Source: Dysidea avara
Lineage: Eukaryota; Porifera; Demospongiae; Dictyoceratida; Dysideidae
Length of the DNA stretch: 64,000 bases
Assembly: GCF_963678975.1 (NCBI RefSeq)
Contig: NC_089273.1
Location: 22,028,356 to 22,092,355, forward strand
Direction of reading: 5' to 3'
The notes under the pieces were generated by a model. The model ran no database searches. It saw nothing but the letters and a program-made list of their open reading frames with translations, and was not told where the DNA came from. Below, piece by piece: positions 9,989-44,963 of this stretch. The stretch's first letter is position 1. Every line of letters begins with the position of its first letter. The position numbers were made by a program, and so were the translations under genes.

Positions 9989-10317
9989 TCTAATCAAAAA
10001 CAGCCAAGCTGTAAAAAAAGGAGTGCGGCCCTTGAAAAGGCTATGGTGAAAAAAGATGTGAAATCCAAGGTGGCGGCCAAGAAATGGCTGTGATGGTAGG
10101 TTAATGGTAAAAATTTTAATAACGACAATTCAGGTGAATTTGGTGCCGCTTGGTCAATTGGCACAAAATTCACCTGAATTGTCATTATTAAAATTTTTAC
10201 CATTAACCTACCATCATAGCCATTTCTTGGCCGCCACCTTGGATTTCACATCTTTTTTCACCATAGCCTTTTCAAGGGCCGCACTCCTTTTTTACAGCTT
10301 GGCTGTTTTTGATTAGA
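9989..10317. repeat. Terminal foldback of copy C
   Basis: TCTAATCAAAAACAGCCAAG at 9,989 is the exact reverse complement of the other end (CTTGGCTGTTTTTGATTAGA), and the arms pair almost perfectly over about 160 bp around a small centre near 10,150. A transcript would form a very long hairpin. Confidence 0.85.
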
Positions 10318-10549
10318 TTTCACTTCTTTTTGTATTTGTATACCCCAAAGCCGGCCTATGGCCAGCTTTGGGGCTTTTTAACCTATATATTTTTCTTTAC
10401 CACAAGAAAAAGAAAAAGATGAAGCAGATTTTATAAACACTTTAACTCATTCTGATTTTATCAGTAAATGTACAAATTATATATATAATGCATATATCAA
10501 GAGTTCATAATATAAAAAGAGAGCATATATTTATTACATGTCAATTAGT

Positions 10550-13500
10550 CTCCACAGGATGATTTGCAGCTGATCTCTCTACTGGGTGACTCGAAATGTA
10601 GCTGAAATCTCTACAGGGTGATCTGCTTGTACGTAGATGAACTCTTTACAGGATTCTCTCTACAGGGTGACTTGATTCTAGCTGAACTCTCTGCAGGGTT
10701 ATCTGTTTGTAGTTGAATTCTCTACAGGGTGACTTGTTTGCAGCTGAACTCTCTACAAGGTAACTTCTTCTAGCTGATCTGTCTACAGGGTGACTTGTTT
10801 CTAGCTGGTCTCTCTACAGGACGATTTGTTTGTAGCTGAATTCTCTACAGGGTGATGTGTTTGCAGCTGAACTCTCTACATGGTGGTTGCTTTGTAGCTG
10901 AACTCTCTAAAAAAGGTGACTTCTTCTAGCTGAACTCTCTACAGTGTGATCTTTTCATAGCTACATGAACTCTCTACAGGATGATTTGTTTGCAGCTGAA
11001 CTCTCTACATGATGATTTCTTTGTAGCTGAACTCTCTACAGGGTGATTTGTTTGTAGCTGAACTCCCTACAAGGTAACTTCTTCTAGCTGATCTATCTAC
11101 AGGGTAATTTGTTTGTAGCTGAGTTCTCTACAGGGTGTTTGTTTGCAGCTGAATTCTCTACATGGTGGTTTCTTTATAGCTGAACTCTCTACAAGGTGAC
11201 TTCTTCTAGCTGATCTCTCGACAGGGTGATTTGTTTGTAGCTGAACTCTCTACAGGTGATTTGTTTGTAGCTGAACTCTCTACAAGGTGATACTTCTAGG
11301 TGATCTCTCTACAGGATGACTTGTTCCTAACTGAACTCTCAACAGGGTGATCTGTTCATAGCTGAACTTTCTACTGGGTGATTTGTTTGCAGCTAAACTC
11401 TCTACATGGTGGTTTCTTTGTAGCTGAACTCTCTACAAGTAGGGATGTCAAAACCCCCGCAAAATTAAGGAATTTCTTCTCCCGTAAATTTCATTAAAAA
11501 GTGGCACAATAATTGTGCGTCTTTCAGACAGTTTAGGCACTAGAATTTTTCGTTTCGTAGTGATGAACTGGTGAAGGTAGTGCTCTTCTGGTGAGTTTCC
11601 TCGTGATTAGAGTAGCTAGGTGCGTTTGTTAGCCCAAATGTTAGTTTCCTGCCTAGAAAATGTATGGAAATGACAACAAGCTAGTTTCGTCGACCGCCAT
11701 GCACAACAGAGTTCCAGTTAATCGATAGGTTGGTTTTCAGTCAGTGCAAGATGCAACTTGAACGCCTGTATTAGTTTTCTGGAAATTCTACGCAATTGAT
11801 AATACAAAGTGGCGTAATCACCCATACGTCACTTGTTTTTGTTTTGTGCCATGGTTACCAATGGTGCTCAATAGAGAAGTCTGGAGAATCGCCTATTTGT
11901 GGGTAGTTGGAAAAGGCGGATACGGTCGGACACGGACGCGGACACGGACATTTTCAAAAAGCACTTTTACATTTATGCAGTATATGCTTTTACATTTATG
12001 CAACTTATTTTTCATACCTAATGCTGTTTTTACAGCAGTCTTCGCTTCGAGACCCAGGCGTCGATCCTTTCATAGCGCTTATCCATTTATAAGCGCACGT
12101 GCGAAGGACTAAACCAGCACTCCACAGCATGCCAAAGACCATAATGGTGTTGTACACATGTTCTAAAGTCTAATACAGAGTTATATAGTTGTAGACATTA
12201 GCTTGTATGCCCCATGCAACTTAGCTTAGCAGGCCAAATCCACAATCTTACGCCTTTTAGTATAAGGCGCAGGCGCTTATACCAAGTGTTGAGGATTTCA
12301 AGGACCTGGCCTACGAGAGTAAGTTGGGACATGCTAGATTAATCTCTGTGACTCTGAATTAGATTTCTAGAGCACGTATACAACACTATAATAGTCTTTA
12401 GAGTGCTAGTCTATCCTTCGCACGTGCGCTTATAAATGGATAAGCGCTATGAAAAGATCGACGCCTGGGTCTGGAGGCGAAGACTACTGTAAAAACAGCG
12501 TTAGGTATGAAAAATAACTGTTATATAAATGTAAAAGTCCTTTTTGAAAATGTCTGTATCCGTGTCCGCGTCCGTGTCCGCATCCGACTGTATCCGCCCT
12601 TTCCAGCTACCCCCTATTTGTTTATTGAACAATTACTGGCTACCACAAAAGCAAATGTGGCAAACCAATATATCAATCTGCAGCATTTTTCGAGCTCTAC
12701 ATGATGCCGTGGCTAAAACATGCATTTGTCAAACTTTTAAAAATCCGTTTGACATCCCTACTACAAGGTAACTTATACTACCTGATCTCTCTACAGTGTG
12801 ACTTGTTTCCAGCTGATCTGTGATTTGTTTGTATCTGAACTCTGTACAGGCTGATTTGTTTGCAGCTGAACTATCTACATGGCGGTTTCTTTGTAGCTGA
12901 ACTCTCTACATGGTGACTTCTTCTAGCTGATCTCTCTACAGGGTGACTTGTTTCTAGCTGAACTCTCTACAGGTGATTTGTTTGCAGCTGAACTCTCTAC
13001 ATGATGGTTTCTTTGTAGCTGAACTCTCCACAAGGTAACTTCTTCTAGCTGATCTTTCCACAGGGTGATTTGTTTGTAGCTGAACTCTCTACAAGGTAAC
13101 TTCTTCTAGCTGATCTTTCTACAGGGTGATTTGTTTGTAGCTGAATTCTCTACAGAGTGATTTATTTGCAGCTGAACTCTCTACAAGGTGACTTCTTCTA
13201 GCTGAACTCTCTACAGAGTGATTGATTTTTTTGCAGCTAAACTCTCTACATGGTGGTTTCTTTGTAACTTCTGCTCTATTAGACTATCGCCATCTCATCT
13301 TACATGAAATTGTATACTATGCGAATTATGCTCTTAAATCACTTCAAAATTCCAGAATAATTCCCGATTTTTTTAACCCATCATTGTGCTCAAAATTACG
13401 CATGCATAAATCTTGGACCCCTACTTGTTTGTAGCTAAATACTCTAATGGGTACCTTTTTTAGCTGAACTCTACAAGTGGCTTGAAATCTCTACAGGGTG

Positions 13501-13725
13501 ACTTGTTTGCAGCTGACCTCTCACTAGGATAGCTTTTTAAAGCTGAACCTACAGGTGACTTATTTTTGACTGAACTCTCCGCTTGGTGATTTGTTCATAG
13601 CTGAACTCTGTACATGGTGATTTTATTGTAGCTGCAGGGTGAGTTGCTCATAGTTCAACTCTTTACATAGTGATTTGATTGTAGTTGAATGTTTTAATAA
13701 TAAGAATGACTTATTATGTAGCTGA
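10550..13725 (-). repeat. Minisatellite array of copy C
   Basis: Tandem ~31-bp units, plus-strand form CTCTACAGGGTGATTTGTTTG followed by TAGCTGAA, with variant units containing AAGGTAACTTCTTCTAGCTG and ATGGTGGTTTCTTTGTAGCTG. About 1.85 kb of repeat, roughly 60 units, once the nested element (11,440-12,760) is excluded. Three unit types alternate, as in the other arrays. The far right part (13,264-13,560) is degraded and contains other repeat sequence. Confidence 0.9.
11440..12760. mobile_element. Foldback DNA transposon nested in the minisatellite
   Basis: Terminal inverted repeats TAGGGATGTCAAA (left) and TTTGACATCCCTA (right) are flanked by CTACAAG on both sides, a 7-bp direct repeat that the satellite unit would contain once. 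Inside are long inverted arms (about 11,895-12,115 and 12,410-12,635) sharing TTATCCATTTATAAGCGCAC, GACGCCTGGGTC-type sequence and a run of GGACACGG words. The TIR resembles hAT termini, but only 7 of the usual 8 target bases match. No transposase frame, so non-autonomous. Confidence 0.75.
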
Positions 13726-14452
13726 ACGTTCTATTAGAGTGACAGCACTATCGATCATGACTTGATGCACCTAGTTGACTTTTGTATTAAGTGGTTTTTA
13801 ATCTGATTCCTTGTAAACTACTAATAAACTGTTATAATCTACCTTTCTACCTATTTTCAGCTGATTCCATTAGCTAGTTTGCCTGGTAGGTGTGGCAAGT
13901 AATTCTATTTATTAACAAAACTCAATTGTGGTTACTCCATGTACAGACGGATGTTCAAGTTATTCTGTCAAGCAGTTTACCCTGGAGGCGTTTCCCTGTA
14001 TATTCTTGAAAAATTGTGCATAACTCCCTTGTCCTTTGTCTGATCTGTACCAAAATTATACTGTAAATTTGTAGTACTTATTATGTTCTTATGGCCCTCC
14101 AAAAGTTAAGTGAATTGACCTAAGCGCTTGCAAGTTAGTACGATTTTCTAAAGTGTGCAAAACGAAGGAAAAAAAGATTAAGAAGAAACACGTGAAGAAA
14201 ATAAGACAGACTTTGAAGGCTTGTATCTTATTGATGGATGGGTGGATTCACCTCAAATTTGGAATGGAAGGTGCCCTACCCCGAGGGAGTTTCCACAACA
14301 AAAATGGTTACGTCTAACCATCATTGAGCTATGAATGCATGAAAATGGCATTTTCTTTGTTCCTATTAAATACACTCTTGTCTGTCATGTGCCTGTTTGG
14401 CCACACAACACACTATCATGTGGCTTGATAATTTATTGCAAAGTGTCTTGTA

Positions 14453-17400
14453 GTGTACCACTACATTGCAATTGTGTTATACGTTTTTGCTATTTATTGT
14501 ATAGGTGAAATGCTACAAGAAGTATCAGAGTATCTTCAAAAGCTACATCAAAACATCATCCATAATCATAAGGTGACTCAAGCACAGTGGCTTCCTTTTA
14601 AGTCTAGTACTATTAGGAGTGTAATTGTAACTTATCATAACAATGTATACGTCAGCAAAACCACACTACAAATTTGCAGTGCAGTCAACCAAGAGAATAA
14701 TAAAGCTAAGTTTGCAGAAAGTAGCCATGATGAAGCAACTAACTCTATAAGTGAATATCCTAAAAGTATATCAGATTTATTTACTCCATTGGTAGGAAAA
14801 CCTCCTAATACAATTCTAATTGAAGGTGCTCCTGGCATTGGTAAGACTACCTTAGCCAATGAAATAGCTTTAAAATGGAAAAGCATTCCACTTTTATGTG
14901 ATAGAGAGTTTTTGTTTCTAATATATCTCAAAGATCCTCAGGTACAAAAGGCTAAGAATTTAAATGATTTATTACATGTTATATTTCGAAATGATAAACT
15001 ATCTACTAGTATCGATGACTTTGAAAAATTGATATTTATGAACAATGGAGCTAATCTTGCAATGATATTTGATGGGTATGATGAACTACCCCGTCACTGT
15101 ATTAAAAGATCATTCATTTCATCGATTATCAGGAGATCTTATTTAAAATCTTCTTTATTAATCATCACTTCTCGACCTTCATTTGCAAAGAAGTTGCATA
15201 TACCATGCTGCAGAAAGGTTGAAATATTGGGATTTACTGAGGCAGACAGGGACCTTTATATTAAAAGTGCTTTGAATGAACCTGCCATTATCATCGAGCA
15301 TTTTAGAAAATATCCAGCTATTAATGCCTATTGTCGTATTCCATTCAATCTGAACATGCTTTTATATCTATATTGTCACAGTAATGGTTACCTTCCAGTT
15401 ACTAAAACAGAATTGTTCAAAAAGTTTATTGATTATTCCATGTGTGCCAAGCAAGCTTGTTTACCTAAATATACACACAAAACCAAAACTGATGAAGGGT
15501 TGCAACAGCTTTTGAAAGAGTTTGGTAAATTATCCTTTGATACTTTGAAAGCTAATAAGTTAGCTTTTTCACATCAAGACCTTCAAATAACATGTAGAAA
15601 ATATCTTAAAGTAAAACAAGGTAATGTGAAATGTCCATTTGGCTTATTACAAATTTCACATTGGTTGGGTTCTCAGGAAATTTCCTACAGCTTTTTGCAT
15701 GTAGGCATTCAGGAATATCTCGCAGCGTGGCACTTATCTGAGCAGGGGCTTGAAGTAAAAGCAATGCTAGATTACTTCTGGGATGAGAGGTTCTTCAACA
15801 TGTGGGTGTTTTATATTGGTATCACAAAGGGGAAACAACTTGTGATAGATTTTGAAGGCTTTATCAGAATTCAAATCTGGTGGAAAAATGATTGTAAAAC
15901 TACCAGATTATTACGATTCAATATCATAAATGACAAAATGAAGTGCTTACATTTAGTCCAGTGTTATATGGAAGCTGAGGATAAAGATTGTTGCCAAATG
16001 ATCAGTGATTTTCTTTTTAATGAATTTGTTGATTTAAGTAATCATCATATGTTATATGAAGGTCTCAACACACTTTGTTTTGCTATAATTCATTCTTTAG
16101 AATGCTGCTTGACTGAACTGAACTTAGCAAATTGCAGAATTGGGGATGATGGTTGCAAGTACATTCACACACAATTAGTATCAGCACCATCCAACCTCAC
16201 TATTGGAGTTTTGAATCTTTCTGAAAACCAACTTACTGGGCTCTCAGTAAATTTTATTATAGATTTAGTATTAAAGTTAAACACTAAAGCATTGATACTA
16301 TCTGGTAACCAGTTGTGCTGTGATGGTACATCAAAGTTAATTCAGAATAGTTCCACCTTGTATTTTCTAGATGTCACAAATAATAATGTTCTTTCAGAAG
16401 ATACTGCTTTGTTGAATTACTTTTATTCGAACACTACCAGTGGTATGTCAATAGTGTTCTCTAAAGAAACTGTTTGTTTAAGTAACTGTGATTGCGAAGA
16501 AAAGGAATACGGCACATATTTACCTAAATTTTACTATCACTCATTTTCAGTAATTTTAACAACAGATTCCAGTGAATCAAGTAATTATATTGACAACAAG
16601 ATTGACAATGTAAGTCTCAGATCTTTATATCTAAACTGCACTCTAAACGAGAACTTGGATATTTTTTGTGCATGGATGAAAGAGTTAAAGCTTAGCAAAT
16701 TGCATCTTATTATAAACCCTAAACACTCTGAAAAAGTTTACTCGGTAATTACAAGAATGAAAACTCTTACAGAAGTGTGTATTGGTCAGTTAAATAATGA
16801 CACAGCTGATAAAATTGTTAAGAAATTAAATATTGCTGTAATAGTAACATCATTATCCAAATTTCAAGCAAAATATAGTCTAAATGCTGAAACTTTGTTA
16901 GCAAATTTCCGTACATTTAGTTTCCAGTCATTGCATACTATAAGGATAGAAAATTGTAGTATAGAAATTAACATGTTAGCAGCTGCAATTGTATCTAACA
17001 ACCATTGGGATTCGATTGGCCTGTTGGAATGCAACCTTGGTGATGAAGAACTAAGTAACCTATGTGATGGTGTGTGCTCATCAAAGCAAATTACGGTACA
17101 CTCTCTTAATCTGAAACGGAACAATATAAAACATGTCGGCAGCCTTAACAATTTACTGCATCAATGGAAAACTAAACGGTTAAATTTAGAATGCAATGAT
17201 TTACAATACGCGGGTTTTATGGATATAGTTATTAGTGCCAAACAAGGAGATCTTGAACTTGAGTATCTTGATATGCGAAATAATAGTATAACTGGATTAG
17301 AAGACTTGTGTGAAGACTTATTATTTGATGTCAAATATAAAGTAAACTTGTCACTATTGAGTAGTGAGTATATTGTGTCTAAAAACAGAAAGTTTTACAC

Positions 17401-20400
17401 AGAGGCTTTGTGCTTCTTAGTGAACTGCAGCTCTCTTAATCTTTACATTCAACCTGTATCTGATTGCTTTAATACATTTAAAGTTCTTTCCAACTTACTA
17501 AGAATTACTTCAATTCAAAAGTTATATGTAATTGCCTCAGCTATTGACTTCAAAAGCATTTCATTGTTGATACAAATGCAAGCAAGCAAACCATTTGATC
17601 TCTATTTGAATGTGAGAGCAATGGGTGATAGAGATATTGATTATTTAGTTAAAAGATTTCCACATAAATCAATTTATGTGCAATCGGAAACAAAACTGAC
17701 AGCATGTTACTTTAAGCTTAAAAAGAATTTTTTCCTTTTGCAAAGTAAAATAATAAGCTTGTCACTTTATCAATGCATATTGGATAAAGATAGTCTCAGT
17801 GTAATTGGTAAAATAATTGCCAATAGCCATAAAACCTTTCAGATGATTGATCTTTGTCATTGTAGTTTATGTGATGCTGATCTTCAGGTATTGTTGAAAG
17901 AAAAGCAGAATTACATGCCATTCATTAAGGTGTTCAGTTTATCTGGTAATGCTTTAGCAGCTTCAAGCATTAATGAGTTATTATGTTACTGGAGAGTAGA
18001 GCATTTGTCTGTATGTAGCAATCAACTGCAAGATAGCGGAGTTAAGGACATTGTTAAGTGTGTAGTACAGAGTAATAATGTCAGGAGTGTTGATCTTACT
18101 GATAATGATGCTAGTTTACAACTGAAGGAAGTATGTAAAGAAAATTTTTTTGAAGAACACAACAAGTTTAGTTTTGTACTGATGGACAATGGCTTGCTTG
18201 CTGTACAACACATCAGTGAGGTGTGTAGAGACTTTAAAGGAGTAACAGGCTTGTATATAAAAGAAAGCCCAGAAATTAATGTTGTGCTCTTACCACAAAA
18301 TTGTGACTCTTTAAGATATCTGTATATTGTTTGCAGTCAGATTCACAGTGATGAATTTAAAAACTCTTTACAATTTCTTCATCAGATAAAAGAGTTATAT
18401 CTACATGTTGAAAACCTTGTAGAAAAAGATGCTGATGCCATAGCAGATAGCTTTGGAGAGCAGTCAGTTGGTTGTGTAATCGTCACTCACACTAAATTAA
18501 AAATGATGAATGCTGATGAATCACTAACTGTTAAAGGTTTATCAACCTGTAGACATTCTGTTGTGACTGTTGAACTGAACAACTGCATGATCAATTTTTC
18601 AAGGGCCATTCAGTGTTTGGCTAAAATATTCAACAGCTGCAGTGGAAGTTTATTCCAGGCATTTAAACTGAACAAATGCTGCTTAGAAGATCATCATTTC
18701 AATACTTTACTAAACACTTTGAATGATAAAAATAAATTGATAGTCAAACAATTAGACTTGTCGCATAATTTATTGTCTTCGGTGTCATCAGATGATGTTA
18801 AAAAAATGTATAATTTCTTTATGCCTGAGCATCTAGTAATTAGCAATAACAGATTATCGTATGATAGTGTTTTGATTCTTTTAACCATTGACTGCACCAA
18901 TTTGAAGTATCTGTCATTGCAGCACAACAATTTTGCTCACTCTGATACAGACAGGCTATGTAAACAGGTTGCCTTTGATCGCAGATATAAACTTCAGTGT
19001 TTACTTATTGCAGAGAGTTTGATTGTAGATGTAACTGCTTGTTCTGAAGAAATTTGGGACATAATCAAAGGAGAGGTGTTAAAGAAATTGTACATTAAAT
19101 TATTTTCATCAATTCATCAGAGCAATAAATACACCAAGTATCTAAAGAAGTTGTTATCATCATTTTGTTTGCTGGAAAGTCTGTTTTTATTCATCAGCGG
19201 TCCATTTGATTTTGATAAAAATCTTCTCAACGTTCTTCAAAGAATACAAATATCAAAGAGATTGGTACTTTATATAGAAAAACTGCCAGATGATACATTT
19301 TCAAAATTGGTTGCATCTTTTACATCCTCCATTGGTATAGAATTATTCTCACAAAAAAAGGTGTGGATTTCCAATTCTGATTGTAAAATGATAAATGTAT
19401 TGTTGAAATACATTAGCTGTGAGGAGGTGGATTGTATTTTTGTTGCAAACACTCCAAGTATTCATGAACATCTGCATCTCCTTGCTAACACTCTCTTGTG
19501 CCAGTGTAAACAAATAAAGCAAATTAGTTTGGCAAGCTGTTGCAGTACAGATTCCAAGTTTGATGTATTATTTCAGACAATATCTTCACAGTTTCAGCAG
19601 GCTTCATTCAACATGCTAGCACTTACAAGATTAAATTTGTCTTTTAATCAATTATTACCATATTGTATGCCAAGTTTAATTAAGACTGTCTTCATTACTA
19701 GAGTTGAAGAATTGATACTGACAGGTAATAAAATTGGATTCGTTGGAGCTAAAATGCTTATCGAAGAGTTGACAATGGATTTAAATACCGTAAAGTACAT
19801 CAATATAAATCATAATGAAATTTATAAACCAGAAACTCTTTGTCAAAAATATTTTATCAATCTAAAGTTTGAATATAGCTTTTTGGCCACTAGCAGTGGT
19901 ATTATAATTACTAAAGGATTTCTCACAGATTATCCAGCTATATGGCAGGATGAATATTTAACATCATTTTCTTCAGTGTATTTGGCAAGGAAAGGTTTAT
20001 TGTCTAGTCTTGAATTGCAGAACATCATAATCAAATCAAACCAAAAGCTTAAGCAGCTGTACATGGTATTACTACAAAACAGTGAATTGCAGTTAAATTC
20101 AGATCAGATGAATTTAGTGGACATCCAAGAGCTCTGTCTGTTTACTCCATTGCTAGGTAGTAAAAGTAGAATAAACATTTGGGGAAAATATTGTCAAAGT
20201 AAAAGTGACAAGCAAAAAGTATTGTTACTTTCAAAAGAAGCATTGCAAGCAAGGAACTTTGAAAGCGAAGATAGTAGCAATGTTTTACTTAGGGCCTTTG
20301 AATACTGCCGTAGTTTGGTGGTAAATATTCAGCTAATAAATTGTAAATTATCTCCTTTGATTATGAATAATTTAACCCAAGTGTTAATAAATAACAGAGA

Positions 20401-23400
20401 ATTACATCATCTGGAAATTTGTGACACTGATGATTGTGAAATAGGTTCAACTATTCTGAACAAACAAGATATCACAATACAGATAAAATCCATCACTTTA
20501 TTTAACAACAATTTGACCATGAAATTTCTGAACAGCTTTATCAGTTTTGTTAATTGTTGGAGTGTTGATGAACTGTTCATCAAAGATAATAAAATTTCAT
20601 TTGATGGCTTTAAAAAGTTAGTCCGTGCAACTGGAACTGGAAAGTCACCACTAAAGACATTACACACATTGCAAAATTTTATAGAAATTGAAAAAGCACA
20701 AGAACTGTGCAAAACAGTGTATTTTGATTCTGTCTACTCAATCGGTTGCTTAAGGATAAAGGGAAACAATTTTGATTTCCTAGTAATTAAACCGACACTC
20801 TCTAGTTATAATGGAATCTGTTCATACACAGATGACTTTGTTAAGTCTCATTATCAGTCAAAGAGTAAGGAGAAACACAGCACCTCTCAATCCTCCTTAT
20901 TTGTTGAGACAGATTATGACTCAATTGATCCACTAGTATGGACATGTGCTAGCAAATTATGCATAGTGGCTCCAGTGAAGGATCAAGAGAGCTTGGTGTC
21001 TAATCTAAAAGAGAATAAATCTCTGTCTGAGATTTACCTGTATGTGAACAGCTTAAAAGATTCTTCATTGAAAGAGATAAGCAAAAATTTACCTGCTTCA
21101 TGTCAAACAACAGTATTTTTAACAGCAGAAGTGTTTATAGCAAAGAATGCAGGTCTCCTTTATGTTGACAAGGGATTGCAAATTTTATCTTCTACAACTA
21201 TTCTTCACACTATTATAATAAATCACTGTTCCCTTAGTATTGAAATGTTAATGCTCCTAAATCATATTCTGGAACATGGCCATTTATGGGAATGTCTTGA
21301 TTTATCTCATTGTTCACTTGGTGACAACATTAAACATATTTTGCAACCTTTATCTGGTGAAATCACTGTAAAAACTGTCAAGTTGTCTTTTAATGGACTG
21401 CAACAGACTACAGCAGCCCCAATTATAAAAACTATACTCCACTGGAACACTGAGGAACTCTTTATTAATGACAACAATTTAAGAGACACTGGAGTTCATA
21501 AAGTTGTTGCCGAAGTATGCAAGCACAGCAAGAAATGTCAACTAACTGTTTTGAATTTATCCAATAATGCTGTTACATTAGACAAAGCTAGAAGTAGTTT
21601 AATCAAAGTTCACAAAGCCTTATCTAGTAGGCAGTTGCTGTTGTCAATGGATGATGCAATACTAGTTCAGGAAACACAAAGATTTCCCAGTGGTTTAATT
21701 TGGACTTCAATCATACAAGCTTCAAAGTTGTTTTACAGCTTTAATTGTGGGCAAGAGGTAATTTTTTCTATTAAACCCCACCTAGCAAGTATAAATGAAA
21801 TTGTACTGTGCAACAATGATTTTCATGAAAGTAATAATTCAAAAAATTTAGCAGAGATTGCTTTTAAAAGTAAAGAAACCATCATTATAACATTACTTTA
21901 CCAAAACCTTAAAGCACAAAATTGTCACTTAACCTTGATTCAGATGGTTTTTAAAGAAAATGTGAAAATTAACAGTTTGGACTTTTCATTTTGTGAGGTA
22001 GATAATAATCTTTTAACTCAGATTGCAAATTTGATACAGTGTAATAGACATTTACAGTTGCTGAGTCTGAAAGGGTGTAACTTATCAAATGACTTTTGCA
22101 AAATTTTGTTAAATCCATTACAAGATACTAATAATTTACAGGTAAACTCATTAAATCTATCCTCAAACAACATTCGTTTATCTGCTGTGGAAGATTTGAG
22201 CAAGCTATGTTGCATTTTGAAAACAGAAAATTTATGCTTGGATAATAATGAACTGAGTGACAATGGTATTGAAAGATTAGTTAATGCCCTAAATGGAGAG
22301 AATCACAACCTTCAGTATATAAAGCTCACAGACAACAATACCCATTACTTGACTGAATATGAATTTAACAGGCTTTGTAATACAACCTGCACTGTGGAAA
22401 TAAACCCCAGGACACAAACACTGTACAAGTCACTGACACTTTTTCTTGAAATCATGGAAACAATTGATAATCTATATTGTATAGAGTGCACTTTTTCCAT
22501 TCAGAGCTTAGAAGATGTTTTATCGCTTAAATTGAATCGTTTGCATTTGTTAGGAACTTTAGATACAAGTGTAAGTAAATCTAGTTCTTTTTGTGGTAAG
22601 ACCACTGTTTTACGGGCGAAAGAAATAATAATTGTTTTGAAGAACTGTGATGACACACTAGCATTTGAACTCTTTAGAAAAGCAGATACAATTCCAATCG
22701 TGATAGTTTCAAAAATTTCAATACTAGCTAAAAACATCAAGGAAGCTGGACTAATTAATATAGTTCTACGACAGTGTCAAAAACACTGTTTAAAGAAGTT
22801 TTTGCTTAACAGTTGCAATGTAACTAAGTGCTTTAAAGAACTTGCATCACAACTGAATAGTGTGAGTAACAAACATTTGGAGGATTTTCAAATGCGAAAT
22901 TGTTTTTTAAGTCACACTAGCTTGATAGCATTGGTTAAGTCATTGACTTTAATTAGAATTACATCAGATGTAGTGGATTTATCCTGTAATCAAATCACTA
23001 CAGAATCAGCAGAAATCATTGGAACTATGGTCAAAGACTGGCAAATTAAGAAATTGTGTTTGAATGACAACCAGATGTCACAAGAGGGAATAAATTATAT
23101 ACTTAGTGCTTGTGTGTTAATGTACTATCTTCAAGACATAACATTTGAAGGTAACATTGATGCTAAAGATCTTCAGCAAGCAGAAACAGTAGTAGACAAT
23201 GCTGTGAGCAAATTTTTATCCTTGGATTCAAAGACTTATTTTAATGAGAGCCTCAATAACTACATCATTATGGTTGTTTGTAGATTGCTGAATTTTCACT
23301 TTCTCAGAGTTTCAGTGATTACTTCTGATGAAATTGTTTTGGAAGGTGACCAAAACAGTCTCAAAATGACAGATATAAGAGTTTATATAAATGCAAGGAA

Positions 23401-31034: not shown

Positions 31035-31845
31035 TCAAGACACACGGTAGTGTGTCGTGCGGCCCAAGAAGCCGGCGCACAACCCCGTGAGTATATTGAC
31101 AGGAAGAAAGAAAACGCAATTTTCGCACCTCCGTAGCTCTGTGCTGCCTTGATGAAACAAGACAAATTTTGCTGTGCACATTCCCTCCAACTTCAGTACT
31201 CCACATTCCAAATTTGAGCGAAATCGCTTCAGGCATTCCTGAGATATGCGACTTCAAAAATTGGCTTAGTTTCTTCGTTTTTTTCTTCCTCTTTTCGCAC
31301 ACTTACAAAAACTGCTATAAAACGCGAACGCGTTATCCGATTGCCTTGAAATTTGGCACACAGAAGGGGGGTATAAAGGCGCATCTCGGTACCAACTTTG
31401 GCTGGAATACCATAAACAGACAAAGAGTTATGAGCGATTATGCACGAAAAATAACACCAATATGTTGTCACGCCTACAGGGTAAACCGCGTATGGGAAGA
31501 AGCTGAAAATCGGTGGGTGAATAGGTTAACTATTGAACCTCAAACCTTTTGTGGTTTGAAAGAAATCGAGCTAAAAACCAGGAAGATACAGCGAAAAAAT
31601 CAACAGTGTGTAACAATTACGCAATCGAGATTAGCTAATTTTTAATATTTTTATTTTATTATTATTATTATTATTATGCTTGCCACGCCTACCAGATAAA
31701 CCACTTGGGGTAATGCTTTGAAAATCGCTGTACAGATGGAGTTATCATCTTAGAAAGGCTCTTCAATGGTGTAGAAGAATCAGACTTAAAGCCACGGAGT
31801 TATAACACGAAATCCAACTTGGTGTAGCAAGTGCGAGATCGAGAT
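31035..31845 (+). repeat. Head module of copy D
   Basis: About 800 bp with landmarks GAGATATGCGACTTCAAAAA, AACGCGAACGCGTTATCC, GGTAAACCGCGTATGGGAAG and GCCACGCCTACCAGATAAAC. It carries open frames on both strands (158 aa plus, 80 aa minus). Because the DNA is nearly identical to the copy at 39.9 kb, the shared frames are not evidence of coding. Confidence 0.75.
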
Positions 31846-31879
31846 ACTCTAATAGAGCAGTCATCCTAATAGAGCAGTC

Positions 31880-34800
31880 ACCCTGAACAGAATTCAAGAG
31901 ATCAGTTAGAAATAAGTAACCTGTATAGAGATCAGCTACAAACAAATCACCCTGTAGAGAGTTCAGCTACAAACAATTCACCCTGTTAAAACATCAGTTA
32001 GAAGAAGATTTCTTGTAGAGAGTTCAGTTACAAACAAATCACCCTGTTGAAAGATCAGCTAGAAGATGTCATCTTGTAGATAGTTCAGTTACAAAGAAAC
32101 CACCATGTAGAGAATTCAGCTACAAACTAGTGACCCTGTAGATACATCAGCTAGAAGAAGTTACCTTGTAGAGAGTTCAGCTACAAAGAAACCATTCTGT
32201 AAAGAGCTCAGCTGCAAACAAATCACCTATACAGAATTCAGCTACAAACAAATCACCCTGTAGAGAGATCAGCTAGAAGAAGTTACCTTGTAGATAGTTC
32301 AGCTACAAACAAATCATCCTGTAGAGAGATCAACTACAAATAAATCACCCTGTAGAAAGATGAGCTAGAAAAAGTTACCTTGTAGAGAGTTCAGTTACAA
32401 AGAAACCACCATGTAGAGAATTCAGCTACAAACTAGTGACCCTGTAAAGACATCAGCTAGAAGAAGTTACCTTGAGAGAGTGCAGCTACAAAGAAACCAT
32501 CATGTAGAGAGTTCAGCTACAAACAAATCTCCTTGTAGAGAGATCAGCTAGAAGAAGTTACCTTGTAGAGAGTTCAGCTTCAAACAAATCACCCTGTAGA
32601 AAGATCAGCTAGAAGAGATCACCTTGTAGAGAGTTCAGTTACAAAAAAAAACCACCATGTAGAGAGCTCAGCTACAAACTAGTGACCTTGTAGAGACATC
32701 AGCTAGAAGAAGTTACCTTGTAGAGAGTTCAGCTACAAAGAAACCATTCTTTAAAGAGCTCAGCTGCAAACAAACCACCTGTACAGAATTCAGCTACAAA
32801 TAAATCACCCTGTAGAAAGATGAGCTAGAAAAAGTTACCTTGTAGAGAGTTCAGTTACAAAGAAACCACCACTGCTTGAAGTTTCTTAGTTTACTAGAGT
32901 GGTATATCCCCAGTATATGGAACAGTTAATTGTTTGGAATTTTAGTAGCTTTTCAGTAAACCTGCATTCACTGATGTTTACTGAGAATTTAAAACTTAGT
33001 AAAACAATTATGTTCCATATACTTAAAGTTACTGACATTTTACTATCAGTATAACTGGGCACAACTACAGTAAAGCAGCTTAACAAATTAGTAAACTAAG
33101 AACCTTCAAGCAGTGCACCATGTAGAGAATTCAGCTACAAACTAGTGACCCTGTAAAGACATCAGCTAGATGAAGTTACCTTGAGAGAGTTCAGCTACAA
33201 AGAAACCATCATTTAGAGAGTTCAGCTGCAAACAAATCACCTGTAGAGAGTTTAGCTACAAGCAAATGTCCCTGTAGAGAGATCAGCTAGAAGAAGTTAC
33301 CTTGTAGATAGTTCAGCTACAAACAAATCACCCTGTAGAGAGATCAGCTAGAAGAAGTTACCTTGTAGATAGTTCAGCTACAAACAAATCTCCCTGTAGA
33401 GAGATCAGCTAGAAGAAATTACCTTGTAGAGAGTTCAGCTACAAAGAAACCACCATGTAGAGAGTTCAGCTGCAAAGAAATCACCCTGTAGAAAATTCTG
33501 CCAGAAACAAATTGCCCCCGTAGAAAGATCAGCTAGAAGAAGTTACCTTGTAGATCGTTCAGCTACAAACAAATCACCCTGCAGAGAGATCAGCTAGAAG
33601 AAGTTAACTTGTAGAGAGTTCAGCTACAAAGAAACCATCATTTAGAAAGTTCAGCTACAAACAAATCTCCCTGTAGAGAGATCAGCTAGAAGAAGTTACC
33701 TTGTAGAGAGTGAAGCTACAAACAAATCACCCTATTGAAAGATCAGCTAGAAGAAGTCACCTTGTAGAAAGTTCAGTTACAAAGAAACCACCGTGTAGAG
33801 AGTTCAGCTACAAACTAGCTACCTTGTAGAGACATCAGCTAGAAAAGTTACCTTGTAGAGAGTTCAGCTACAAAGAAACCATTCTGTAAATAGCTCAGCT
33901 GCAAACAAATCACCTGTACAGAATTCAGCTACGAACAAATCATCCTGTAGAGAGATCAGCCAGAAGAAGTTACCTTGTAGATAGTTCAGCTACAAACAAA
34001 TCTCCCTGTAGAGAGATCAGTTAGAAGAAATTACCTTGTAGAGAGTTCAGCTACAAAGAAACCATTCTGTAAAGAGCTCAGCTGCAAACAAATCACCTGT
34101 AAAGAATTCAGCTACAAACAAATCACCCTGTAGAGAGATCAGCTAGAAGAAATTACCTTGTAGAGAGTTCAGCTACAAAGAAACCATCATTTAGAGAGTT
34201 CAGCTGCAAAGAAATCACCCTGTAGAAAATTCTGCCAGAAACAAATTGCTCTGTAGAAAGATCAGTTAGAAGAATTACCTTTTAGAGAGTTCAGCTACAA
34301 AGAAACCATTCTGTAAAGAGCTCAGCTGCAAACAAATCACCTGTACAGAATTCAGCTACAAACAAATCACCCTGTAGAGAGTTCAGCTCCAAACAAATCT
34401 CCCTGTAGAGAGATCAGCTAGAAGAAGTTACCTTGTAGATAGTTCAGCTACAAACAAATCACCCTGTAGAAAGATCAGTTAGAAGAAGTTACTTTGTAGA
34501 GAGTTCAGCTACAAAGAAACCATTCTGTAAAGAGCTCAGCTGCAAACAAATCACCTGTAAAGAATTCAGCTACAAACAAATCACCCTGTAGAGAGATCAG
34601 CTAGAAGAAATTACCTTGTAGATAGTTCAGCTACAAACAAATCACCCTGTAGAAAGATCAGTTAGAAGAAGTTACTTTGTAGAGAGTTCAGCTACAAAGA
34701 AACCATCATGAAGAGAGTTCAGCTGCAAACAAATCTCCCTGTAGAGAGATCAGCTAGAAGAAGTTACCTTGTAGATAGTTCAGCTACAAACAAATCACCC

Positions 34801-35225
34801 TGTAGAAAGATCAGTTAGAAGAAGTTACTTTGTAGAGAGTTCAGCTACAAAGAAACCATTCTGTAAAGAGCTCAGCTGCAAACAAATCACCTGTAAAGAA
34901 TTCAGCTACAAACAAATCACCCTGTAGAGAGATCAGCTAGAAGAAATTACCTTGTAGATAGTTCAGCTACAAACAAATCACCCTGTAGAAAGATCAGTTA
35001 GAAGAAGTTACTTTGTAGAGAGTTCAGCTACAAATAAACCATTCTGTAAAGAGCTCAGCTGCAAACAAATCACCTATACAGAATTCAGCTACAAACAAAT
35101 CACCCTGTAGAGAGATCAGCTTGAAGAAGTTACCTTGTAGATAGTTCAGCTGCAAAAAAATCTCCCTGTAGAGAGATCAGTTAGAAGAAATTACCTTGTA
35201 GAGAGTTCAGCTGCAAAGAAATCAC
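31880..35225 (+). repeat. Minisatellite array of copy D
   Basis: About 100 units of about 31 bp. Three unit types recur in loose order: CAAACAAATCACCCTGTAGAG, GAAGAAGTTACCTTGTAGAG and CAAAGAAACCATCATGTAGAG, each followed by AGTTCAGCT or AGATCAGCT. Blocks of several units (for example near 34,400, 34,600 and 34,900) are repeated almost unchanged, indicating higher-order duplication of about 250-350 bp. Confidence 0.92.
32870..33115. mobile_element. CACTA-like MITE inside the minisatellite
   Basis: 246 bp with 27-bp terminal inverted repeats beginning CACTGCTTGAAG and ending CTTCAAGCAGTG, with one mismatch in that span. The satellite context AAACCAC/CACCATG shows a 3-bp target duplication (CAC) relative to the uninterrupted unit AAACCACCATG. 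CACTG termini with a 3-bp duplication are the hallmark of the CACTA (EnSpm) superfamily. No coding capacity. Confidence 0.8.
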
Positions 35226-35335
35226 CACTGTCCAAATTTCAAGGCAATAGCTCTTTCTAATCTGAAGTTATCAATTGTCAAAGTTGGCAAATTGGATGTG
35301 TGTGGAAGACCCCTTTTCGCAAATCCGATCACATA
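35226..35335. mobile_element. Truncated TATGTGACC MITE (right half)
   Basis: Matches the right half of the complete MITE at 44,242-44,478 (CAAGGCAATAGCTCTTTC, GGAAGACCCCTTTTCGCAAA, ending TCACATA). The left half is missing and the satellite joins it at AATCACCACT, a word also present at the matching point inside the intact copy. Confidence 0.75.
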
Positions 35336-35496
35336 TGTATTATATATATAATTTGTACATTTACTGATAAAATATTTAAAGTACATCTACTTCATCTATT
35401 CTTCTTCCTGTAGTAAAGAAAAAAACATAGGTTAAAAAAGTCCCAAAGCTGGCCATAGGCCGGCTTTGGGGTATACAAATACAAAAAGAAATGAAA

Positions 35497-35822
35497 TCTA
35501 ATCCAAAACAGCCAAGCTGTAAAAAAAGTGTGCGGCCCTCAGAAAGGCTATGGTGAAAAAAGATGTGAAATCCAAGGTGGCGGCCAAGAAATGGCTGTGA
35601 TGGTAGGTTAATGGTAAAAATTTTAATAATGACAATTCAGGTGAATTTGGTGCCGCTTGGTCTTGGCACAAAATTCACCTGAATTGTCGTTATTAAAATT
35701 TTTACCATTAACCTACCATCACAGCCATTTCTTGGCCGCCACCTTGGATTTCACATCTTTTTTCACCATAGCCTTTCTGAGGGCCGCACACTTTTTTTAC
35801 AGCTTGGCTGTTTTGGATTAGA
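35497..35822. repeat. Terminal foldback of copy D
   Basis: TCTAATCCAAAACAGCCAAG at the left is matched exactly in reverse complement at the right end. Arms of about 155 bp pair nearly perfectly around a centre near 35,660 (GCCGCTTGGTCTTGGC). Confidence 0.88.
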
Positions 35823-36516: not shown

Positions 36517-36524
36517 GAACCCTA

Positions 36525-36800: not shown

Positions 36801-36803
36801 TTA

Positions 36804-36941: not shown

Positions 36942-37044
36942 ATCACATAGTGACCACCCTTCATGGTTTGTAGTACACATCTATCCAGTTCTATGTGGCC
37001 ATTAACTTCTACTAGGTGATTGCATCATCCTTCTTTGTATTACA

Positions 37045-38002: not shown

Positions 38003-38095
38003 TTTCATGCGTATCCATACACTAACTGTATTGAGTTTTGAAATAACTAACTGTGCACAATAACTTTTGATTTTGTACTTTGCATTGACCATGCA

Positions 38096-38245: not shown

Positions 38246-38249
38246 TAAT

Positions 38250-39895: not shown

Positions 39896-40751
39896 GTAAT
39901 ATCAAGACACACGGTAGTGTGTCGTGCGGCCCAAGAAGCCGGCGCGCAACCCCGTGAGTATATTGACAGGAAGAAAGAAAACGCAATTTTCGCACCTCCG
40001 TAGCTCTGTGCTGCCTTGATGAAACAAGACAAATTTTGCTGTGCACATTCCCTCCAACTTCAGTACTCCACATTCCAAATTTGAGCGAAATCGCTTCAGG
40101 CATTCCCGAGATATGCGACTTCAAAAATTGGCTTAGTTTCTTCGTTTTTTTCTTCTTATTTTTCTTCCTCTTTTCGCACACTTACAAAAACTGCTATAAA
40201 ACGCGAACGCGTTATCCTGTTGCCTTGAAATTTGGCACACAGAAGCGGGGTATAAAGGCGCATCTTGGTACCAACTTTGGCAGGAATACCATAAACAGAC
40301 AAAGAGTTATGAGCGATTATGCACGAAAAATAACACCAATATGTTGTCACGCCTACAGGGTAAACCGCGTATGGGAAGAAGCTGAAAATCGGTGGGTGAA
40401 TAGGTTAACTATTGAACCTCAAACCTTTTGTGGTTTGAAAGAAATCGAGCTAAAAACCAGGAAGATACAGCGAAACAATCAACAGTGTGTAACAATTACG
40501 CAATCGAGATTAGCTAATTTTTTATTATTATTATTATTATTATTATGCTTGCCACGCCTACCAGATAAACCACTTGGGGTAATGCTTTGAAAATCGCTGT
40601 ACAGATGGAGTTATCATCTTAGAAAGGCTCTTCAATGGTGTAGAAGAATCAGACTTAAAGCCACGGAGTTATAACACGAAATCCAACTTGGTGTAGCAAG
40701 TGCGAGATCGAGATACTCTAATAGAGCAGTCATCCTAATAGAGCAGTCACC

Positions 40752-43700
40752 CTGAACAGAATTCAAGAGATCAGTTAGAAATAAGTAACCTGTATAGAGA
40801 TCAGCTACAAACAAATCACCCTGTAGAGAGTTCAGCTACAAACAATTCACCCTGTTCAGACATCAGTTAGAAGAAGTTTTCTTGTAGAGAGTTCAGTTAC
40901 AAACAAATCACCCTGTTGAAAGATCAGCTAGAAGATGTCACCTTGTAGATAGTTCAGTTACAAAGAAACCACCATGTAGAGAATTCAGCTACAAACTAGT
41001 GACCCTGTAGATACATCAGCTAGAAGAAGTTACCTTGTAGATCGTTCAGCTACAAAGAAACCATTCTGTAAAGAGCTCAGCTGCAAACAAATCACCTATA
41101 CAGAATTCAGCTACAAACAAATCACCCTGTAGAGAGATCAGCTAGAAGAAGTTACCTTGTAGATAGTTCAGCTACAAACAAATCATCCTGTAGAGAGATC
41201 AACTAGAAGAAGTTACCTTGTAGATAGTTCAGCTACAAACAATTCACCCTGTACAGAGCTCAGTTAAAAGAGGTTTCCTTGTAGAGAGTTCAGCTACAGA
41301 CAAATCACCCTGTAGAGAGATCAGTTAGAAGAAGTTACCTTGTAGATCGTTCAGCTACAAACAATTCACCCTGTAAAGAGATCAGCTAGAAGAAGTTACC
41401 TTGTAGAGAGTTCAGCTACAAAGAAACCATCATGTAGAGAATTCAGCCGCAAACAAATCACGTGTAGAGTTCAGCTACAAACAAATCTCCCTGTAGAGAG
41501 ATCAGCTAGAAGAAGTTTCCTTGTAGAGAGTTCTGCTACAAACAAATCACCCTGTAGAAAGATCAGCTAGAAGAAATCGCCTTGTAGAGAGTTCAGCTTC
41601 AAAGAAACAATCATGTGAGAGTTCAGGTACAAACAAATTGTCCTGTAGAGAGATCAGCTACAAAGAAACCATCATGTAGATAGTTCAGGTACAAACAAAT
41701 CACCCTGTAGAAAGATCAGCTATAGAAGAAATCACCTTGTAGAGAGTTCAGCTACAAAGAAACTATCATGTAGAGAGTTCAACTACAAACAAATCACCCT
41801 GTAGAAAGATCAGCTATAGAAGGAATCACCTTGTAGAGAGTTCAGCTACAAAGAAACCATCATGTAGAGAGTTCAGCTACAAACAAATCGGCCTGTAGAG
41901 AGATCAGCTAGAAGAAATTACCTTGTAGAGAGTTCAGCTACAAAGAAACCATCATGTAGAGAGTTCAGCTGCAAACAAATCACCTGTAGAGAGTTAAGCT
42001 ACAAACAAATCTCCCTGTAGAGAGATCAGCTAGAAGAAGTCACCTTGCAGGGAGTTCAGTTACAAAGAAATAAATCATGTAGATAGTTCAGCTGAAAACA
42101 AATCACCTGTAGAGAGTTCAGCTAGAAACAAGTCATCCTGTAGAAAGATCAGCTAGAAACAAGTCACCTTGTAGAGAGTTCAGCTAGAAGAAGTCACATT
42201 GTAGAGCTACAAAGAAACTACCATGTAGAGTTCAGCTGCAAACAAATCACCCTGTAGAGAACTCAGCTACAAACAAATCGCCCTGTAGAAAGATTAGCTA
42301 GAAGAAGTTACCTTATAGGGAATTCAGCTATGAACAGATCACCCTGTAGAGAGTTCAGCTACAAACAAATCACCCTGTAGAGAGTTCAGTTACAAAGAAA
42401 CCACCATGTAGAGAGTTCAGCTGCAACAAAAATCAAACACTCTGTTGAGAGTTCAGCTAGAAGAAGTCACCTTGTAGAGAGTTAAGGTGCAAATAAATCA
42501 CCCTGTAGAGAATTCAGCTACAAACAAATCACCCTGTAGAAAGATCAGCTAGAAGAAGTTACCTTGTAGAGAGTTCAGCTACAAAGAAACCAACATGTAG
42601 AGAGTTCAGCTGCAAACAAATCACCTGTAGAGAGTTCAGCTAGAAACAAGTCACCCTGTAGAGAGATCAGCTAAAAACAAGTCACCCTGTAGAGAGTTCA
42701 GCCAGAAGAAGTCACATTGTAGAGAGTTCAGCTACAAAGAAACTACCACGTAGAGAGTTCAGCTGCAAACAAATCATCCTGTAGAGAGTTCAGCTAGAAG
42801 AAGTCGCTTTTTAGAGAATTCAGCTACAAAGCAACCACCATGTAAAGAGTTCAGCTGCAAAAAACTCAATCACCTTGTAGAAAGATCGGCTAGAAGAAGT
42901 TACCTTGTAGAGAGTTCAGCTACAAAGAAACCACCATGTAGAGAGTTCAGCTGCAAACAAATCACCTGTAGAGAGTTCAGCTAGAAACAAGTCACCCTGT
43001 AGAGAGTTCAGCTAGAAGAAGTCACATTGTAGAGAGTTCAGCTACAATGAAACTCCCATGTAGAGAGTTCAGCTGCAAACAAATCACCCTGTAGAGAACT
43101 CAGCTACAAACAAATATGCAGTGTAAAAAGATCAGCTAGAAGAAGTTACCTTGTAGAGAGTTCAGCTACAACGAAACCACCATGTAGAGAGTTCAGCTAC
43201 AAACAAATCACCTGTAGAGAGTTCAGCTAGAAACAAGTCACCCTGTAGAGAGATCAGCTAGAAACAAGTCACCTTGTAAAGAGTTCAGCTAGAAGAAGTC
43301 ACATTGTAGAGAGTTCAGCTACAAAGAAACCACCATTTAGAGAGTTCAGCTGCAAACAAATCACCCAGTAGAAAGTTCAGCTATGAACAGATCACCCTGT
43401 TGAGAGTTCAGTTAGAAACAAGGAATCCTGTAGAGAGATCACCTAGAAGTATCGCCTTGTAGAGAGTTCAGCTACAAACAAATCACCTGTAGAGAGTTCA
43501 GCTACAAACAAATCACCCTGTAGAGAGATCAGCTAGAAGAAGTCACCTTGTAGAGAGTTCAGCTATAAAGAAACCACCATGTAGAGAATTCAGCTGCAAA
43601 CAAACACCCTGTAGAGAACTCAGCTACAAACAAATTGCCCTGTAGAAAGATCAGCTAGAAGAAGTTACCTTGTAGGGATTTCAGCTACAAACAAATCACC

Positions 43701-44225
43701 CTGTAGAGAGTTCAGCTACAAAGAAACCATTCTGTAAAGAGCTCAGCTGCAAACAAATCACTTGTACAGAATTCAGCTACAAACAAATCACCCTGTAGAG
43801 AGATCAGCTAGAAGAAATTACCTTGTAGATAGTTCAGCTACAAACAAATCACCCTGTAGAAAGATCAGTTAGAAGAAGTTACCTTGTAGAGAGTTCAGCT
43901 ACAAAGAAACCACCATGTAGAGAGTTCAGCTGCAAAGAAATCACCCTTTAGAAATTCTGCCAGAAACAAATTGCCCTGTAGAAAGATCAGTTAGAAGAAG
44001 TTACCTTTTAGAGAGTTCAGCTACAAAGAAACCATTCTGTAAAGAGCTCAGCTGCAAACAAATCACCTATACAGAATTCAGCTACAAACACATCACCCTG
44101 TAGAGAGATCAGCTAGAAGAAGTTACCTTGTAGATTGTTCTGCTACAAACAATTCACCCTGTAGAGAGAGCAATTAGAAGAAGTCACCTTGTAGAGTGTT
44201 CAGTTACAAAGAAACCACCATGGAG
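40752..44225 (+). repeat. Minisatellite array of copy E
   Basis: About 110 units of the same three types as in copy D. The middle (41,600-43,500) contains unit orders and variants (AGAAACAAGTCACC, CTATAGAAGAAATCACC) that are absent or rare in copy D. The ends resemble copy D more closely. This suggests internal turnover by unequal exchange. Confidence 0.92.
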
Positions 44226-44241
44226 ATTTCTGTAATCAATA

Positions 44242-44478
44242 TATGTGACCGGATTTGCGAAAAGGGGTCTTCCACACACATCCAATTCCATAAATGTAGG
44301 AGACCATAACTCAGTGTTCAAGTAACATATTAACCTTTCACCATGTATTCAGCTATAGTGGTGATCACCACTTTCTAAATTTCAAGGCAATAGCTCTTTC
44401 CAATCTGAAGTTATCAATTGTCAAAGTTGGCAAATTGGATGTGTGTGGAAGACCCCTTTTCGCAAATCCGGTCACATA
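44242..44478. mobile_element. TATGTGACC MITE, complete, 237 bp
   Basis: Inverted termini TATGTGACCGGATTTGCGAA and TTCGCAAATCCGGTCACATA are exact over 20 bp and continue into AAGGGGTCTTCCACACACATCC. The element is bracketed by TA-rich sequence, consistent with a TA target (Tc1/mariner-like, inferred). It lies at the downstream edge of the satellite. Confidence 0.75.
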
Positions 44479-44644
44479 TGTATTATACAGCATATATAAT
44501 TTGTACATTTACTGATAAAATATTTAAAGTACATCTACTTCATCTTTTCTTCTTCCTGTAGTAAAGAAAAAAACATAGGTTAAAAAAGTCCCAAAGCTGG
44601 CCATAGGCCGGCTTTGGGGTATACAAATACAAAAAGAAATGAAA

Positions 44645-44963
44645 TCTAATCCAAAACAGCCAAGCTGTAAAAAAAGTGTGCGGCCCTCAGAAAGGCTATG
44701 GTGAAAAAAGATGTGAAATCCAAGGTGGCGGCCAAGAAATGGCTGTGATGGTAGGTTAATGGTAAAAATTTTAATAATGACAATTTAGGTAAATTTTGTG
44801 AAGCGGCACAAAAATTCACCTGAATTGTCGTTATTAAAATTTTTACCATTAACCTACCATCACAGCCATTTCTTGGCCGCCACCTTGGATTTCACATCTT
44901 TTTTCACCATAGTCTTTCTGAGGGCCGCACACTTTTTTTACAGCTTGGCTGTTTTGGATTAGA
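44645..44963. repeat. Terminal foldback of copy E
   Basis: Same outer arms as copy D (TCTAATCCAAAACAGCC and its reverse complement). The centre differs: about 20 bp around 44,800 is shortened and altered relative to copies C and D. Confidence 0.87.

Follow-up and report, generated by a model that had tools for sequence, protein, structure and literature searches.

A high-copy, probably Helitron-type element with a large terminal palindrome in the genome of the sponge Dysidea avara

We analyzed a 64-kb stretch of the genome of the keratose demosponge Dysidea avara (positions 22,028,356-22,092,355; assembly of 550.8 Mb in 108 contigs), hereafter called the window, which carries five copies (E1 to E5) of a repeated element. 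The element consists of a head, an array of 31-bp units in four of the five copies, and a foldback, or terminal palindrome, of about 320 nt at the 3' end. It is most likely a high-copy, non-autonomous transposon of the Helitron type whose 3' hairpin may be re-copied or repaired on a single-stranded intermediate. Insertion between A and T without target duplication, together with a 5'-TC and a short hairpin 11 nt from the 3' end, points to Helitron-type rolling-circle transposition. Elements of this general kind are known; set against the open-access literature, the size and behavior of the palindrome are the novel part.

Distribution of the copies in the window and in the genome

Self-comparison and probe searches located five heads in the window (at 440, 31,035 and 39,902 on the plus strand, and at 6,598 and 14,428 on the minus strand) and four foldbacks, each downstream of a head in the same orientation, with no stray foldbacks. 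A preliminary description of this DNA had reported copies at these five places, which were borne out far above chance, with constant order and orientation of the parts. The coordinates of its three full copies also stand, namely E3 (9,989-14,428, minus strand; palindrome at 9,989-10,317), E4 (31,035-35,822, plus strand) and E5 (39,902-44,963, plus strand; palindrome at 44,645-44,963), with the exact ends A^TC...GATTAGA^T. E4 and E5 agree at 98-99% in their heads and in their foldback arms.

The two copies described as degraded are real, but their limits had to be revised. E1 (440-1,819, plus strand) is a diverged copy without the 31-bp array, with its palindrome at 1,548-1,819 and the 3' end GTGTGGA. 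E2 (4,340-6,598, minus strand) comprises a head and a short array, with units at 4,340-4,668 and an interruption of about 1.1 kb at about 5,230-6,345; BLAST detected no foldback in this copy. A quasi-palindrome of about 158 nt (4,064-4,221; 73% self-complementary) lies near the truncated end of E2. On the minus strand of E1, at about 1,080-1,170, a stretch looks tRNA-like by eye; ARAGORN and Rfam were silent there, and with bacterial settings they found nothing in the window.

Some details of the earlier picture changed. The 13-nt head motif is exact in four of the five copies, but the head of E3 at 14,428 (minus strand) reads TCAAGCCACATGATAG, although it still aligns as a head. In the three full copies the foldback was said to end in GATTAGA, which holds for E3, E4 and E5; that of E1 ends differently. 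The sequence CTCTAATAGAG, proposed as a motif of the element, proved non-specific: allowing up to one mismatch, the window contains 19 occurrences of CTCTAATAGAG or CTCTATTAGAG, 11 of which lie outside the elements.

An exact search with the head returned 7,658 matches genome-wide (3,844 + 3,814), compared with 16 (8 + 8) for a reversed-pattern control. We sampled the first 20 heads listed, with about 9.9 kb each, a non-random set that lies entirely in the first 1.8 Mb of contig C1. In 16 of these loci, the 3'-end probe matched to its last base downstream of the head and in the same orientation, which delimits elements of 1,006-5,459 bp; 31-mers lie between head and end in 15 of the 16, with L027 as the exception. 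As for the other four, L036 is split by a reversed copy, its own palindrome carries a mutated end, GATTATA, and the end matched by the probe there does not belong to this element; in L018, L024 and L032 no 3' end was detected within about 9.4 kb. L030 is composite, containing a head-to-tail tandem copy and an additional truncated palindrome.

In this sample, heads and foldbacks are not mostly apart, since only 3 of the 20 heads lack a foldback within that distance, and the 16 heads that reach a common 3' end support the earlier proposal of a single mobile unit whose array varies between fixed ends. Nor do the flanks of the window copies form one segmental duplication: when 800 bp per side (fewer bases to the left of E1) were compared at E 1e-3, only three matches of 22-90 bp appeared, all between E3 and E4 and in dispersed repeats. 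With a mean length of about 3.75 kb (n = 16), the family may occupy roughly 4-5% of the genome, a rough extrapolation from one contig end. Viral and prokaryote contigs scanned for the head and 31-mer patterns gave 0 matches, and scans with the foldback and 17-mer patterns returned nine viral loci (L001-L009).

Termini and insertion site

The base preceding the 5'-TC is A in all 25 copies compared (20 genome loci and the five window copies), and a T follows the 3' end in each of 20 copies. The preceding A was not contained in any search pattern; the following T is the last base of the probe, where a mismatch would have trimmed the match. The 5'-TC is present in all five window copies, E3 being included via alignment, while in the genome loci only the place of the boundary provides a test. 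GATTAGA forms the 3' terminus in 19 of 20 complete copies, E1 being the exception, and the end pair of the family can be written as TCAAGACACACGG...GATTAGA. The reversed copy in L029 ends in GTATAGA.

The flanks are AT-rich, and we saw no sign of a target duplication at the 25 5' boundaries and 20 3' boundaries compared. Direct repeats of at least 2 bp occur at the ends of 9 of 20 copies, versus 8.2 with permuted partners, and 11 of 20 copies have none. If the A is counted into the element, the flanking base is T in only 14 of 25 copies.

Empty sites were examined among paralogues, where four copies gave a clean A^T insertion and a fifth did not. In the best cases a single A^T is split, with neither duplication nor loss. 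The joined flanks of L031 correspond to an uninterrupted stretch of the family head in E4 and E5, at 96.5% over 200 bp (GAAGAA^TCAGAC), and L035 has an empty paralogue at 96% over 200 bp that differs at base -2. The weaker empty sites of L026 (75.6% over 172 bp) and L023 (82% over 45 bp) also show A and T joined, and the flank matches of L028 are TA repeats. The earlier view that the element is not a classical DNA transposon is upheld by the empty sites without duplication and by direct repeats at the permuted level.

Two other insertion modes were considered and are disfavored. A T^T insertion, as in Helentrons, appeared possible from the window alone, but base -2 is not fixed among the genome copies. 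A duplication of TA or a longer target, as in miniature inverted-repeat transposable elements (MITEs), mariner or foldback elements, is disfavored by the empty sites and by the permuted-level repeats.

Short hairpins and subterminal motif

The arrangement of both ends can be followed in E4 (plus strand). Its head of about 860 bp (31,035-31,895) carries, after the 5'-TC, a hairpin, GACACACGGTAGTGTGTC, with a 7-bp stem (31,039-31,056), followed at nt 23 by the left subterminal motif GTGCGGCC (31,057-31,064), which has an inverted counterpart near the 3' end. Two 17-bp units, CTAATAGAGCAGTCACC (31,849-31,884), open the array, which consists of units of about 31/30 bp (31,897-35,231). Beyond it lie an upstream hairpin with a 13-bp stem (35,442-35,470) and the terminal palindrome of 326 nt (35,497-35,822). 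The palindrome includes the inverted motif GGCCGCAC (35,782-35,789), 33 nt from the 3' end, and the short 3' hairpin ACAGCTTGGCTGT (35,799-35,811), 11 nt from the terminus.

The small head hairpin noted earlier is found in E4 and E2 (z = -3.6 and -1.2 for 61 nt folded as DNA), but E1 folds differently and none is predicted for E3; the right side of its stem, TAGTGTGT, is present in 19 of the 20 listed loci. The upstream 13-bp hairpin keeps 12 of its 13 pairs in E1, where two pairs changed on both sides, four changed on one side and one is broken.

Of the 20 complete elements, 19 carry GTGyGGCC at nt 23 (L027 is the exception), and 19 have its inverse, GGCCrCAy, 32-35 nt from the terminus. Shuffled sequences equaled the inverted match between head and tail 16, 28, 32 and 521 times out of 1000 in E1, E4, E5 and E3, respectively. 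This short, weak motif is all that the two ends have in common in inverted form, in agreement with the earlier statement that no terminal inverted repeat (TIR) joins them. All 20 complete elements carry ACAGCyTGGyTGT, or the variant seen in E1, as a hairpin with a 5-bp stem that ends 11 nt short of the 3' terminus. This hairpin does not exceed shuffled versions of the last 59-60 nt in folding stability, and its likeness to the hairpin of Helitrons is one of position, not of energy.

The terminal palindrome

The palindrome consists of the last ~160 nt of the element and their inverted copy. In the window, the foldback arms measure 73-159 nt, are 93-99% complementary and stand 2-13 nt apart. Folded as DNA, the 3' end of E4 (383 nt) reaches -215 kcal/mol (z = -38 against 100 shuffles). 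For comparison among copies, 23 palindromes of 272-339 nt were kept out of 68 raw matches, after dropping inner matches of the same palindromes and palindromes under 260 nt (including one in L019 at 3,783 and the reversed one in L036); one of 276 nt (L030 at 8,413) was removed by hand. Linker matches lie to the left of 22 of the 23 and to the right of none, and no integrated inverted dimers occur among them. The base of the palindrome reads A-TC, like the 5' end. In the open-access literature, we found no Helitron with a terminal palindrome of such size.

Within a given copy, the two arms have changed together. Pairwise comparison of E1 with E3, E4 and E5 shows 19-20 changes that affect both arms, whereas about 0.9 would be expected if the arms evolved independently (0 of 5000 simulations), and E3 differs from E4 and E5 by 5 both-arm changes versus 0.1 expected. 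Across the 23 palindromes, minor bases occur on both arms in 81 cases and on one arm in 73, compared with 19.7 both-arm cases after permutation (0 of 1000). In the outer 125 columns, the arms diverge by 0.030 within an element and by 0.078 between elements.

The palindrome also exists both ways round, in two orientation classes of 10 and 13 members; E1 carries hardly any orientation signal. The inner 58 nt of E4 are the reverse complement of the inner 60 nt of E3, apart from a 2-nt gap. The palindromes of E5 and L020 differ at 13 columns when compared in forward direction and at only 2 when one is reverse-complemented, a turn that spans all their shared asymmetric sites (positions 134-186 of 319). 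The two orientations are scattered over the tree of heads. On a tree of 18 heads (those of the 23 palindromes with a plainly joined head, L036 being left out), orientation changes five times, at least four of them forced by well-supported branches, and shuffled labels gave a mean of 5.8-5.9 changes, counts this low coming up in 160 and 182 of 500 shuffles. The terminal branches of this tree are mostly short (median 0.022).

Coding capacity and candidate RepHel partner

No coding region had been noticed in the element at first, and this is supported. The longest frames in E1, E2 and E3 reach only 81, 61 and 52 aa, and the E4 head frame, the only frame tested, has no match in Pfam, but the heads of E4 and E5 do hold frames of 181 and 207 aa, and frames of 156 and 189 aa occur at L022 and L025. 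Given the short frames in the other copies, a coding head was considered and rejected.

Of 230 candidates for Helitron_like_N in the genome, 150 are scored matches, whereas 14 control genomes gave none; among the matches listed, 30 lie in open frames of at least 1,200 aa (up to 2,798 aa). This abundance implies that a source in trans exists in principle. At 20 Helitron_like_N loci, no head was found near the RepHel, with the exception of L052. That locus (contig C6) was rejected as an autonomous copy: its head is followed by a 1,817-bp RepHel match in the opposite direction, for which reason we read it as a nested insertion or a captured fragment. L018 was also rejected, as its head ends after 43 bp in TA repeats. 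RepHels of group A (the L041-L057 type) were discarded as partners; one member has no head, only short dispersed-repeat matches, in its 2 kb of upstream sequence, an interval that extends past the stretch it shares with other members.

Proposed mechanism and alternatives

In the reading that we favor, a RepHel encoded elsewhere in the genome would nick at the 5'-TC, one strand would be peeled off or copied, and the short hairpin 11 nt from the terminus may mark the stop at the 3' end. The product joins between A and T and leaves the target unduplicated, as is seen in the flanks and in the paralogous empty sites. The 31-bp array would be passive cargo between two functional ends, as in tandem-repeat HINEs. 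Because the last ~160 nt are repeated in inverted form, the transferred single-stranded DNA would have a ~160-bp hairpin at its end. This giant hairpin would close on the single-stranded intermediate, and copying or repair at that stage could keep the arms alike and turn the palindrome.

To our knowledge, the conversion of a single-stranded Helitron intermediate to double strand is little understood. With thousands of copies, exact ends and a palindrome that records turns, the family would provide a natural test of this step, each copy storing the orientation from its last event. A minisatellite can, moreover, spread genome-wide by means of a gene-free element.

Several observations weigh against this reading. 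TC and GATTAGA are partly selected, because the pattern used to find the loci begins with TC and the 3' probe ends in GATTAGAT. Three weak paralogues of L037 (70-78%) carry T in place of the expected A, and among the three of L026 one carries A after the junction. The canonical CTRR 3' end is absent from the 20 complete copies, and the inverted subterminal motif, at 8 bp, appears statistically weak. No autonomous copy with the ends of the family was found in the stretches read, and at one RepHel of group C the 2.6 kb upstream are still coding, so that the 5' end of that gene lies beyond this stretch. As for the palindrome, the orientation call is noisy, as 40 of 253 pairs (22 of 123 and 18 of 130) contradict the division into two classes. 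Finally, the tip alone is inverted between E3 and E4, while the next mismatch outside it keeps its side, which suits local conversion better than a turn of the whole palindrome.

Arm-to-arm conversion on the chromosome is accordingly a strong rival, nearly as likely as re-copying of the hairpin. The element would still be of the Helitron type, but its palindrome would be homogenized and inverted by gene conversion, cruciform processing or replication slippage, unrelated to transposition. Partial conversion tracts would yield mosaics such as that of E3 and E4, and because the asymmetric sites lie mostly near the center of the palindrome, turns of the whole palindrome and of its tip are indistinguishable in most pairs. 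However, an almost random orientation on a tree with mostly short branches requires frequent events, and E5 and L020 are turned across all shared asymmetric sites with only two other differences. We continue to favor re-copying or repair on the single-stranded intermediate.

In adeno-associated virus (AAV), both orientations of the terminal palindrome are found and are linked to Rep nicking at the terminal resolution site (trs) and to hairpin priming (PMC11575299). By analogy with such parvoviruses, the folded 3' end of the Helitron-type element might act as a hairpin telomere that primes the second strand, with a Rep-type nick at the palindrome base resolving the product, so that each cycle would copy the arms anew and turn the palindrome. 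The two orientations resemble the flip and flop forms of the AAV inverted terminal repeats, and the A-TC at the palindrome base would suit a Rep-type nick. However, the sponge element differs from AAV in having the palindrome at one end only, no viral genes, and an integrated form with A^T insertion (PMC11575299). Hairpin priming also sits poorly with the lack of inverted dimers among the 23 palindromes and with a 5' end that bears just a short hairpin, and we regard this version as possible but unlikely. If true, a single element would combine transposition by rolling circle with rolling-hairpin replication.

Membership in the Helentron/HINE group proper, the non-autonomous branch of Helitron2, is similarly doubtful. 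In its favor are the two end modules around a tandem array, the 5' hairpin and the inverted motif upstream of a short 3' hairpin (PMC4067079, PMC7492417, PMC3627910). The closest example is Cg_HINE of Crassostrea gigas, a non-autonomous Helentron that likewise has two end modules around a tandem array, a subterminal inverted motif, a short 3' palindrome and no target duplication (PMC7492417). It differs in its TT target, against A^T in the sponge element, and in the monomers covered by its screen, 100-500 bp against 31 bp; it is described with a short 3' palindrome, to which the sponge element adds a terminal one of ~320 nt in two orientations (PMC7492417). Helitron2 and FoHeli1/2 share hairpins at both ends and an inverted motif upstream of the 3' hairpin, and FoHeli1/2 start with TCAG, another likeness. 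However, the Helitron2 terminal inverted repeat begins 0-2 bp from the 5' end, whereas the left motif of the sponge element lies 22 nt inside, other target sites are used, and the parts of these papers at hand describe no terminal palindrome of that size (PMC3627910, PMC5148889). Subterminal inverted repeats of HINEs and Helentrons measure about 11-15 bp, and their central tandem repeats are frequent but not obligatory. Against membership, then, insertion is A^T (25 of 25 and 20 of 20 copies) rather than T^T or a position behind TTTT, the left motif stands at nt 23 and not within 0-4 nt of the 5' end, and the inverted match comprises 8 bp and is non-significant in E3. In the open-access literature, we found no Helentrons reported from sponges.

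Helitron1 elements (Helibat/Helraiser) share with the sponge element the 5'-TC, the A^T target and the hairpin 11 nt before the 3' end (PMC4778049). Canonical Helitrons have their 3' hairpin 10-12 nt before the end (PMC5148889), and in Helraiser, which forms circles, this hairpin is a stop signal (PMC4778049). The sponge element differs from Helitron1 in ending with GATTAGA rather than CTRR, in having no coding region, and in its extra 5' hairpin and giant palindrome (PMC4778049). As these groups are described (PMC5148889, PMC3627910, PMC4067079, PMC7492417), its ends mix Helitron1 traits (TC, A^T, hairpin at 11 nt) with Helitron2/HINE traits (two hairpins, inverted motif, central repeats).

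A cut-and-paste transposon of the foldback or MITE-like kind, with TA or longer target duplications, is very improbable: it would account for the large inverted repeat and for the TA on both sides of E1, E3 and E4, but the inverted motif shared by the ends is just short and weak, direct repeats at the ends stay at the permuted level, with none of at least 2 bp in 11 of 20 copies, and the empty sites are unduplicated. A satellite or a product of segmental duplication that is not mobile can practically be dismissed, since the 31-mers outside the elements at two places in the window and the nested and tandem copies stand against thousands of heads, unlike flanks, exact ends and empty sites.

The array and other features of the window

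Arrays of 31-bp units are present in E2 to E5 and absent from E1 and L027. By strict matches, the array edges of E4 and E5 (E5 array at about 40,766-44,226) are colinear and the middle is not, which suggests that the array turns over inside a stable frame. An array length of 2-3.5 kb had been given for the full copies; this does not apply to E3, which has about 1.4 kb of 31-mers and a degenerate stretch at about 13,426-13,689.

The E3 array is split by a TIR element at about 11,440-12,760, with TAGGGATGTCAAA ends, flanking CTACAAG and inner inverted repeats. A short insertion in the E4 array, at about 32,870-33,115, has CACTGCTTGAAG as inverted ends and CAC on either side; judging by these ends, we take it to be CACTA-like. 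In E5, a TIR element with ATATGTGACCGGATTTGCG lies at 44,230-44,490, of which only the right half is present in E4, and related arms occur at 53,348-53,594. Outside the elements, runs of 31-mers are found at 9,811-9,878 and at about 45,330-45,348 together with 49,076-49,245, the latter run being split by a hAT copy. Each run follows closely after the 3' end of one element, E3 or E5, and has the direction of that element's array.

Two hAT-type transposons of 3,727 bp (45,349-49,075 and 55,749-59,475) are 100% identical and carry an 801-aa frame with DUF4371 and a hAT dimerization domain. They have different flanks, with the 5-bp direct repeats CCACC and ATGTA, and the pair was probably active recently, unless it is an assembly duplicate. 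Between E3 and E4, a 5,252-aa open frame (14,432-30,190) with NACHT and leucine-rich repeats contains no stop and is predicted to be an intronless giant NLR-like gene. An F-box protein of a very large family is encoded at 49,834-51,690; of 7,995 scored candidates, 295 proteins match at E 1e-3.

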